Assembly: GCA_024642335.1 (NCBI GenBank)
Contig: JAHEBH010000008.1
Coordinates: 1-64,000 of the forward strand
From: Erythrobacter sp.
GTDB taxonomy: Bacteria > Pseudomonadota > Alphaproteobacteria > Sphingomonadales > Sphingomonadaceae
Length of the DNA: 64,000 bases
Reading direction: 5' to 3'
The notes beneath the pieces are model-generated. The model was not told the DNA's origin and made no database searches. It saw nothing but the letters and a program-made list of their open reading frames with translations. The first letter of the stretch is position 1; every line of letters begins with the position of its first letter. Positions 56,317 to 60,540 of this stretch are shown piece after piece. Position numbers and translations under genes: made by a program.

Positions 56317-57831
56317 TTGGCACAGGCAGAACAGGCGCTGACGTTTCTCGATCACGTCACCAATGTTTCGGACTTCATCTGGGCCGGCCAGTGGAGCGGG
56401 CAGGAAGTGCTTCCCTTCCCGCCGATGGTCATCATCCTGTTCGGTGTCGGCCTGTGGGTCATGGTGGGGCTGCGCTTCTATCCCATCGTCAAGCTGGGCA
56501 GCGCATTTGCCGGTCTGTTCAAGGGCCGCAAGGGCACTGGTGCCGGCGAGATCAGCCCCTTTGCCGCGCTTTCCACCGCGCTTTCCGGCCAGGTAGGCAC
56601 GGGCAATCTGGCAGGTGTCGCCACCGCCATCGCGCTCGGCGGGCCGGGCGCGATCTTCTGGATGTGGATCACCGCGCTGATCGGCATGGCGCTGGCCTTT
56701 GCCGAAGGCGCACTGGCCATCCGCTACCGCGAGAAGACCAGCGACGGCATCTATCGCGGCGGCCCGATGAGCTACATCATGATCGGCCTTGGTCCCAAAT
56801 GGACCTGGCTGGCGCTGGTATTCTGCGTGGGCACGCTGTTTTCCGCGCTCGTCACCGGCAACGCGATCCAGTCCAACGCGGTGGCTGACGGCATGAACGA
56901 ATTGTTCGGCGTGGAAGAATGGATCGGCGGCATGATCACCGCCATCGTCGTGTTCGTGGTCATCATCGGCGGCATCAAGTCGATCGGCAATGTGGCGGAA
57001 AAGGTCGTGCCCTTTATGGCAGGGGCCTATATCGTGATGGCCCTGATCGCCATCCTGCTCGACATCCAGGACATTCCCGAAACCTTCGCCCGCATCTTCC
57101 ACGGAGCCTTCAATCCGCAGGCGGCGACCGGCGGCTTTGTCGGCGCGGCAATCATCATTGCCATCCGCGCGGGCGTGGCTCGCGGACTTTTCTCCAACGA
57201 AGCGGGGCAAGGCTCGACGCCTATCGCCCATGCCGTGGCGCAGACCGACGATCCCGAACAGCAGGGCCGCATGGCCATGCTGGGCACATTCATCGATACC
57301 ATCGTGATCTGCACCATGACCGCGCTGGTGATCCTGACGGTGGAGGGCAATTTCACCGGCGCTGGCGGACCCGTGGAGCATGCATGGCAATCGGACCTGA
57401 CCGGCTTTGCCATGACCAGCGGAGCTTTTGCGGCCGCCTTCCCCTTCTCCGTCGCCAGTGTCCCGCTCGGCACGTTGATTGCCAGCGTGGCTCTGATCCT
57501 GTTCGTCTTCACCACGCTCTTGACCTGGTCCTATTACGGCGAGCGGGCGATCACCTTCATCTACGACCGCGTGCCGGGATCGAACCGCGCGGGCGAAAGG
57601 ATGCTGCACCGTGGCTGGCGCGTGATCTGGTGTCTGGCCATCTTCATCGGCGCATCGCGCCCGTCGGAAGAAGTCTGGCGCCTGGGCGACATCTCCAATG
57701 CGGCCATGGCGCTGCCCAATTTGCTGGCGCTGGCCCTGCTGTCGGGCGTGGTGTTCAAACTCGCCAGGGGTGACAAGAAGGCCGGGCCGGACCATCTGGC
57801 CGATACGCCGGAAGAGCCCGAGGAGTATTGA
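56317..57831 (+). CDS. Alanine/glycine:cation symporter (AGCS family)
   Basis: GEISPFAALSTALSGQVGTGNLAGVATAIALGGPGAIFWMW, NEAGQGSTPIAHAVAQTDDPEQQG; TTG start. Confidence 0.92.
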   Translation: MAQAEQALTFLDHVTNVSDFIWAGQWSGQEVLPFPPMVIILFGVGLWVMVGLRFYPIVKLGSAFAGLFKGRKGTGAGEISPFAALSTALSGQVGTGNLAGVATAIALGGPGAIFWMWITALIGMALAFAEGALAIRYREKTSDGIYRGGPMSYIMIGLGPKWTWLALVFCVGTLFSALVTGNAIQSNAVADGMNELFGVEEWIGGMITAIVVFVVIIGGIKSIGNVAEKVVPFMAGAYIVMALIAILLDIQDIPETFARIFHGAFNPQAATGGFVGAAIIIAIRAGVARGLFSNEAGQGSTPIAHAVAQTDDPEQQGRMAMLGTFIDTIVICTMTALVILTVEGNFTGAGGPVEHAWQSDLTGFAMTSGAFAAAFPFSVASVPLGTLIASVALILFVFTTLLTWSYYGERAITFIYDRVPGSNRAGERMLHRGWRVIWCLAIFIGASRPSEEVWRLGDISNAAMALPNLLALALLSGVVFKLARGDKKAGPDHLADTPEEPEEY

Positions 57832-57850
57832 GGGATATCCTTTGTAGTTA

Positions 57851-58097
57851 CGCCCCTGCATCCGCAGGGGCATCCTCGGCGCTGATCCCTCCGTCCTTCG
57901 ACAAGCTCAGGACTGCGGGGCACCTGCGGTCGCGCAGTCGCGCTCTGGTGTCGCCAGTCGCGCCACAATCATTGCCGTCCAGCAATGTGGAGCGACATTC
58001 GGGCCACAAGGCCCGCAAGGCCGACCGGCCGCCCGCAGGTGCCCCGCAGCGCAGCGGAGGGAACGGCACCGAGGACGCACGCGCGGATGCGCGGGCG
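57851..58097. repeat. Composite long inverted-repeat element (element A)
   Basis: 57870-57893 pairs with 58055-58078 (20/24), 57913-57929 perfect inverse of 58033-58049 (17/17), outer 57851-57865 pairs with 58083-58097. Confidence 0.8.
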
Positions 58098-58118
58098 AAA
58101 CAACAAGAGAAAGGAAAA

Positions 58119-58194
58119 TGGCAGGGGTGACAGGATTCGAACCCGTGGCCCTCGGTTTTGGAGACCGATGCTCTACCAGCTGAGCTACACCCCT
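58119..58194 (-). tRNA. tRNA-Trp (anticodon CCA), CCA encoded
   Basis: AGGGGTGTAGCTCAGCTGGTAGAGCATCGGTCTCCAAAACCGAGGGCCACGGGTTCGAATCCTGTCACCCCTGCCA, cloverleaf stems complete. Confidence 0.97.
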
Positions 58195-59484: not shown

Positions 59485-59879
59485 GCCTCGGGCGTCCAGG
59501 CTTCGTAATCGCCCGTGGCGCGCGCGCGCTGCCCGCCGCGTTCAAGTGCCCCTGCCGGCCTGTAGGCCTGCGAAGTGCCGGTGGCGTTGGGCGTGTAATC
59601 TGTTTCCCAGATCCGCGGCGGCGGCAAATGGCTTTCGGGCAGTTCGTCATAGGAATGATGCAGCCAGCCATGCCATTCTGCGGGAACTCGGCTGGCGTCA
59701 TTGGCGCCGTTGTAGATGACCCAGCGCCGCTCGCGCTCGCCATCGCGGACGTTCTTCGTGCGGTAGTATTTGTTGCCCTGCGCATCGGTGCCGACATGCT
59801 CGCCCTTGCGCGCAGACCACAGGAGCGTGCCGATCGTGGCACCATCCCACCAGGTGAAGATTTTCATCAGGATTCCCAT
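59481..59879 (-). CDS. NDUFA12 family NADH:ubiquinone oxidoreductase accessory subunit
   Basis: KIFTWWDGATIGTLLWSARKGEHVGTDAQGNKYYRTK, RRWVIYNGANDASRVPAEWHGWLHH. Confidence 0.93.
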   Translation of the reverse strand: MGILMKIFTWWDGATIGTLLWSARKGEHVGTDAQGNKYYRTKNVRDGERERRWVIYNGANDASRVPAEWHGWLHHSYDELPESHLPPPRIWETDYTPNATGTSQAYRPAGALERGGQRARATGDYEAWTPEA

Positions 59880-59925: not shown

Positions 59926-60019
59926 CGGGCCGAAGGCCCGCAAGGGCGACTGCCCGCCCCGCAGCGGGGGCAGCTTGCCTGCCCGTCTAGCGAGGACGCG
60001 CACCCGGATGGGTGCGCGA
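59926..60019. repeat. Structured repeat (element B), related to right arm of element A
   Basis: GGGCC-GAA-GGCCC, GGGC-GACT-GCCC, CGCGCACCC-GGAT-GGGTGCGCG hairpins in same order as in element A. Confidence 0.7.
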
Positions 60020-60030
60020 AAGTCAGACAA

Positions 60031-60540
60031 TCAATCCTCCCATTCCACCTGTGCGCCGGGAGTGAAGCCCAGTTCCTCCAGCCGCCCGCCGTTGATCTCC
60101 AGCACGGCATTGGTCAGACCCGCCGATGGCAGCGAATCCAGCGAATAGGGCGTGGTCATGGGATAATAGTTGAGTATCCGGTTGTCCGTGCCGATGAAGA
60201 TGATGTCCAGCGGGATGACGGTGTTGCGCATCCAGAAAGATGCCTGCTGTCCAGGTCGGCCGACAAATATCATGCCTTCATCAGCGCCCATGACGGTGCG
60301 GAACATCAGACCGCGCGACCATTCCTCGCGGCTGCGCGCCACTTCCACCTGCAGGACGTGCCGCTTGCCATCCTGCACGATCGTGAGCGGGATGACCTCA
60401 AGGCCGGACTCTGGGTGCACTGCGCCTGCCGGCATGCTCTCCCGTGCCGGTTGTTCGCTGGCGACCTGGGTCGAACAGGCGGCCATGGCGCAACAGGCCG
60501 CGAGCACCATGGCCCGCATCAAGTCAATTCGTCCTGCCAT
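60031..60540 (-). CDS. DUF192 domain protein
   Basis: REEWSRGLMFRTVMGADEGMIFVGRPGQQASFWMRNTVIPLDIIFIGTDNRI. Confidence 0.92.
   Translation of the reverse strand: MAGRIDLMRAMVLAACCAMAACSTQVASEQPARESMPAGAVHPESGLEVIPLTIVQDGKRHVLQVEVARSREEWSRGLMFRTVMGADEGMIFVGRPGQQASFWMRNTVIPLDIIFIGTDNRILNYYPMTTPYSLDSLPSAGLTNAVLEINGGRLEELGFTPGAQVEWED

Follow-up and report, generated by a model that had tools for sequence, protein, structure and literature searches.

Elements A and B, two structured stretches in the 64,000-nucleotide piece of Erythrobacter sp. DNA that was analysed here as a whole (the window), belong to a new short inverted-repeat family whose copies lie just behind many Erythrobacteraceae genes; B and the right arm of A are two arms of it. 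In its behaviour this family resembles heterodimeric REP/BIME repeats, but a GTAG or CGTC tag is absent. Comparison of its copies indicates that the family is probably a dispersed element with a recognised single-stranded fold, and the explanation taken as a whole, in which element B is an arm from a dispersed family of REP/BIME-like palindromic repeats in the Erythrobacteraceae, appears to us reasonably probable.

Two arms that are not identical and face each other as inverted repeats make up the basic unit of about 250 nt, and each arm is 110 nt long and comprises four helices (P1–P4). The features of the window, located in part with R1, a covariance model built from 57 arms, are as follows.

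59926–60021, plus strand: element B, a single type II arm (P1–P4); cmsearch with R1 returned 59940–60021 at 77.9 bits.
59926–59940, plus strand: P1 hairpin of element B, CGGGCC-GAA-GGCCCG, from the sequence and its MFE fold.
59944–59955, plus strand: P2 hairpin of element B, GGGC-GACT-GCCC, from covarying pairs.
59957–59995, plus strand: P3 region of element B, type II (..GTCTAGC), closed by the CC/GG of GAGGAC, from the RNAalifold consensus and counts.
59992–60021, plus strand: P4 terminal hairpin of element B, GAGGAC-GCGCACCC-GGAT-GGGTGCGC-GAAA, from pattern matches and 58 distinct covarying stems.
57848–58100, no single strand: element A, a complete head-to-head inverted unit, from cmsearch and repeat I2.
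57848–57947, minus strand: left arm of element A, with P4 stem GCCCCTGC/GCAGGGGC (57860–57877), unlike that of the right arm, from cmsearch.
58015–58100, plus strand: right arm of element A, with a type I P3 and P4 at 58071–58100, stem GCACGCGC/GCGCGGGC with one A.G mismatch, from the pattern match and cmsearch.

Element B is flanked by the DUF192 gene (minus strand, ending at 60031) and the NDUFA12 gene (minus strand, starting at 59879), and element A by an AGCS transporter gene (plus strand, ending at 57831) and tRNA-Trp (minus strand, 58122–58194). In element B a GCAAG linker sits between P1 and P2, and P4 consists of GAGGAC (59992–59997), an 8-bp stem, the GGAT loop and GAAA (60018–60021). 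The order of parts that the first-pass annotation had seen in both elements, P1-GCAAG-P2-P3-GAGGAC-stem-GGAT-stem-GAAA, was indeed recovered at 58000–58100 as well. Its view of A and B as two copies stood in so far as B and the right arm of A belong to one family; element A itself is an inverted pair. The A stem CGCACGCGC/GCGCGGGCG, which it gave as paired, is interrupted by an A.G mismatch at the third of 8 bp, so that 8/9 pairs of the right-arm P4 are formed, counting the closing C-G. The plus strand of element B folds better than 200/200 dinucleotide shuffles (z -3.3), with a weaker result for the minus strand (z -1.8); for element A the corresponding values on the two strands are -4.1 and -3.1. 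The exact terminal-hairpin pattern has three matches in the window's genome, against none for a reversed-pattern control. An intrinsic terminator was rejected as an identity for the element: there is no U-tract, P4 being followed by GAAA-ACAAA in the sense direction and by GTCCTC on the other strand.

The R1 search (E<=0.001) detected 19 arms in the window's own genome. All 40 genomes of the same genus that were searched contain arms (between 1 and 44 apiece, 10–44 in most), as do 27/96 sampled genera of Erythrobacteraceae; none was detected with R1 in the other families of the order that were searched. The exact hairpin pattern was found in 22/101 relatives, own genome counted, and when about 85,000 genomes were scanned, 90 stretches emerged, 87 of them from Erythrobacteraceae (Erythrobacter, Qipengyuania, Aurantiacibacter, Alteraurantiacibacter, Altererythrobacter, Pontixanthobacter, Pelagerythrobacter and other members of the family). 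The three further matches, in Pseudomonas, Pseudoxanthomonas and Roseisalinus, have unpaired stems and were taken as chance. No copy was found in plasmid and phage collections at the sensitivity used, and a literature search retrieved no description of this repeat family, which is not proof of absence. An Rfam search of the element gave no family match at either the gathering or a relaxed E-value threshold, and a resemblance of the CGCAAGGCCGA stretch to twister-sister was dropped for that reason. Near one unit in genome G002, a stretch (L266:2006-2170) matches the Rfam family of the Caulobacter sRNA CC2171 below threshold (53 bits vs a gathering threshold of 75) and is probably a distant homologue of that sRNA.

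The arrangement of arms was surveyed in four relatives (G002, G014, G024 and G038; loci L263–L360). Two-arm sites of head-to-head (-,+) orientation accounted for 51 of all 98 sites, the tail-to-tail (+,-) orientation for none, and the aligned arm cores lie 63–77 nt apart in nearly all head-to-head units; a mixed-species set contained 25 (-,+) vs 1 (+,-). Many units pair a type I arm, in which P3 is closed by GGTGC/GCACC, with a type II arm (..GTCTAGC), as do nearly all units examined from G002 and G024. Further, the same stem was never found at both ends of a unit (0/46, with 5.9 expected from within-genome shuffling, P=0.0015). The GAAA end mostly lies 0–30 nt from the stop codon of the convergent gene (median about 6), and tRNA genes serve as neighbours too, as tRNA-Trp does for element A. 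Compared with 348 background intergenic regions, sites avoid divergent gene pairs (5/181 vs 85/348, P=4e-12) and favour convergent ones (80/181 vs 65/348, P=9e-10), counts that are approximate because they come from a simple, imperfect dicodon gene finder which miscalled the aat gene in the window. As to orientation relative to genes, which the first-pass annotation had left to be checked, the outer ends mostly lie near gene 3' ends. A cis-regulatory 5' leader was rejected, as divergent genes flank only about 3% of the units and it is rare for an arm to stand in sense ahead of a start codon.

The pairing of the terminal hairpin was assessed without circularity in the 87 Erythrobacteraceae pattern matches: the scan pattern fixes the outer bases only, so that pairing at the inner five positions of either stem half could be judged free of selection by the search. 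All five inner pairs are formed in 74 matches and four of five in 13, while partner shuffling yields five of five in 5.8%. In a set of 57 arms drawn from many species, covariation of the 20 proposed pairs scores 0.463 against 0.129 with shuffled partners and at most 0.11 for slid structures, and paired cells make up 96.3% vs 76.6% after shuffling; here and below, covariation was judged against controls of this kind. In 147 distinct arms from four genomes the corresponding score is 0.545 vs 0.147 shuffled, with double changes at 9/9 P4 pairs, and P2 and P3 covary as well. The compensatory change across copies that had been proposed from two elements is therefore borne out in the two larger sets, in which pairing is kept well above the shuffled level. 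Among the first-collected arms the GAGGAC, GGAT and GAAA boxes and the CCGCAG and GCAAG linkers are near-invariant, which for box and loop holds partly by construction, as the search pattern had both fixed. In model-collected arms the loop is GGAT in 108/139 and GGAG in 23/139, and the box is GAGGAC in 110/139, with GAGGAT and similar forms in the rest. Stems are swapped freely in sequence, but their pairing, the loop and the bases beside them are fixed, so that what is preserved is shape and not the sequence of the stem. Some arms (L271, L275, L326 and L031) end in tandem hairpins with different stems, in the form GAGGAC-hairpin-ATGAGACAAATAATTACC-GAGGAC-hairpin.

The non-Watson-Crick pairs carry information about the strand that folds. 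At the many-species loci, P4 contains 17 G.T vs 3 A.C pairs, and stems in all contexts contain 37 vs 9 (P=4e-5); the bias is weaker, 46 vs 22 (P=0.005), when the outermost pair is included in the covariance-model alignments. An excess of G.T over A.C indicates that one single strand folds and speaks against a symmetric cruciform, so that of the two forms suggested earlier, RNA or cruciform DNA, a folding single strand is favoured and the symmetric cruciform disfavoured. The direction of the bias favours the strand that runs from GAGGAC to GAAA as the folding one. G.T pairs are more frequent in arms read in the sense direction by flanking genes (13/248) than in antisense-read arms (7/360, P=0.035), which is only suggestive. 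The excess is not reversed in antisense-read arms, and we count this against our preferred explanation; on these counts a purely mRNA-level role is no more than possible.

Comparison of orthologous junctions revealed gain, loss and exchange. Judged by both flanks, the majority of units occupy orthologous positions in different species. At the DUF192/NDUFA12 junction of element B, 5/30 congeners have an arm, some of them decayed, and 25/30 have a shorter gap; G037 provides an empty site that matches the occupied G019. The junction of element A (57831–58122 in the window; L062) is occupied in Alteraurantiacibacter aquimixticola too, with different terminal stems. At the L333 junction, compared in six species, there is a full unit in G024, a single arm in G039 and a hairpin remnant in G014, the site is empty in G001 and G011, and G002 carries another repeat. 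The remnant (L383, G014:C1:445409-445835) is a lone, hairpin-sized piece where relatives have a full unit or single arm, and may have been left by a deletion or inserted as a hairpin alone. The G002 repeat (L381, G002:C1:2205884-2206431, orthologous to L333) is a different inverted repeat (CGTCATTGCGAGCG...AATCCAG) whose features agree with those described for CGTC REPs, and its presence where G024 has a unit suggests that gene 3' ends are common hot spots for unrelated repeats. Target duplication was not established at the units.

Stems are replaced at fixed loci as well. Between G002 and G024 the stem differs in 8 of 21 orthologous arms (at most 6/8 bases alike, mostly 3–5), and the adjoining 60 nt are as similar in the stem-replaced arms (0.87) as in those with unchanged stems (0.85). 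At L282/L336, body and tails are 88–97% identical, yet neither of the two terminal stems is the same. Most of the replacing stems come from a repertoire common to other arms. This wholesale replacement means that part of the covariation may reflect cassette exchange; it could arise by short gene conversion or by repeated exchange of hairpin cassettes. The earlier proposal of selection for structure thus holds as far as the structure is preserved, but much of the change is replacement of entire stems and not stepwise compensation.

Among known repeats, bcr1 of the Bacillus cereus group is a 100–200 nt chromosomal repeat with a reported RNA-like fold and compensatory changes. We know of no conserved hairpin loop with a variable stem in bcr1, and its host belongs to another phylum than the Erythrobacteraceae. 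The CGTC REPs typical of alphaproteobacteria have 8–9 bp stems with 4–5 nt loops. They occur as inverted and often heterodimeric pairs at most about 20 bp away from gene 3' ends, and no dedicated transposase belongs to them (Di Nocera et al. 2013, PMC3733652). The present family shares the 9-bp P4 (closing C-G counted), the 4-nt loop, the predominance of inverted dimers, heterodimers, the gene 3' placement and the lack of a transposase (Y1_Tnp being the one tested). CGTC REPs are defined, however, by an unpaired CGTC 5' of the hairpin, a CCA tail and a stem starting with AT (PMC3733652), whereas our arms have no CGTC tag or AT stem start, end in GAAA/ACAAA, possess three further helices (P1–P3) and swap stems wholesale around a fixed box and loop; at 110 nt they are also larger than the 20–40 bp REP hairpins described (PMC3733652). 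With GTAG REPs, REPINs and BIMEs the family has in common dispersed extragenic inverted dimers, singletons, gene 3' placement and mosaic modules (PMC3116915, PMC2817692, PMC3733652), but it lacks the GTAG tag at the hairpin end, its arms are much larger and its copy number is low.

Several other explanations were considered. A purely functional RNA without mobility of its own, maintained by selection at each gene as a conserved 3'-UTR structure with a part in termination, mRNA protection or processing, we consider unlikely. Units are kept at orthologous junctions between species with flanks 65–90% identical, arms at such junctions in several genera also fit a stably kept functional element, pairing is maintained despite stem change, and the G.T counts favour the sense strand; against this stand the absence of an arm from most congeners at the element B junction, the many arms antisense to both neighbours (37 singles in the << context) and a paired GC stem that leads into A-rich sequence with no U-tract. 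It is quite improbable, in our view, that a mutational process keeps the pairing without selection, with template switching or short gene conversion copying a stem strand or importing hairpin cassettes. Such a process would account for whole stems being replaced within bodies as well conserved as elsewhere, and for the limited repertoire of stems common to loci and genomes, but stems vary around a near-invariant loop and flanking boxes, P2 and P3 covary too, and a strand-symmetric process is not expected to give G.T over A.C.

CsrB/RsmZ-type decoy RNAs contain repeated hairpins with GGA loops, and the GGA in the GAGGAC box and in the C-GGAT-G loop, together with the tandem terminal hairpins of some arms, would suit an RNA that serves as decoy or binding site for a regulator that recognises GGA. 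Such a role is very improbable, as CsrA was not found in any of 41 genomes searched, own genome included (control genomes were positive), and the copies are scattered as units behind unrelated genes and not collected in one sRNA gene. Mobilisation as a REP/REPIN by a RAYT fits the inverted pairs, singletons and extragenic 3' placement known from REPINs (PMC3116915, PMC3733652), and a past RAYT acting in trans would be compatible; with no GTAG tag, and with Y1_Tnp present in 3/37 and absent in 34/37 same-genus genomes though all carry arms, we give it hardly any credence. The sole Y1 transposase-like gene of the own genome (G000:C39:1443-1772, L203) is a 240-aa open frame on a contig where no arm was found.

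In the explanation that we prefer, a dispersed palindromic repeat with a recognised fold, each arm would fold into P1–P4, and its terminal hairpin would be defined by the unpaired GAGGAC, GGAT and GAAA plus pairing and not by stem sequence, with the single strand running from GAGGAC to GAAA as the putative recognised form. Where units are transcribed, their arms may form rows of hairpins in the 3'-UTR that restrict read-through or shield the 3' ends of mRNAs. The spread of units and the exchange of hairpin cassettes would both take place at the DNA level, driven by a factor that in most genomes would not be a resident RAYT. Loss of identical ends may be due to the instability of long perfect inverted repeats, or to their preventing each arm from folding on its own. 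We advance more tentatively, and with considerable doubt, the idea that the terminal hairpin is a stem-agnostic address for a protein or ribonucleoprotein. Hairpin cassettes would then pass actively from arm to arm with body and flanks left in place, and a unit would need two different stems for its function.

A survey of REPs noted the preference for heterodimers without an obvious explanation and left open what mobilises the transposase-less REPs of alphaproteobacteria (PMC3733652). The present family offers a clear inverted-pair anatomy, orthologous occupied and empty sites, and complete stem replacements at fixed loci, and with it two questions become directly testable: whether fold or sequence is recognised, and whether the recognised form is RNA or single-stranded DNA. 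If the terminal hairpin were a stem-agnostic address of this kind, bacterial palindromic repeats would be evolving here in a manner that is new for them.
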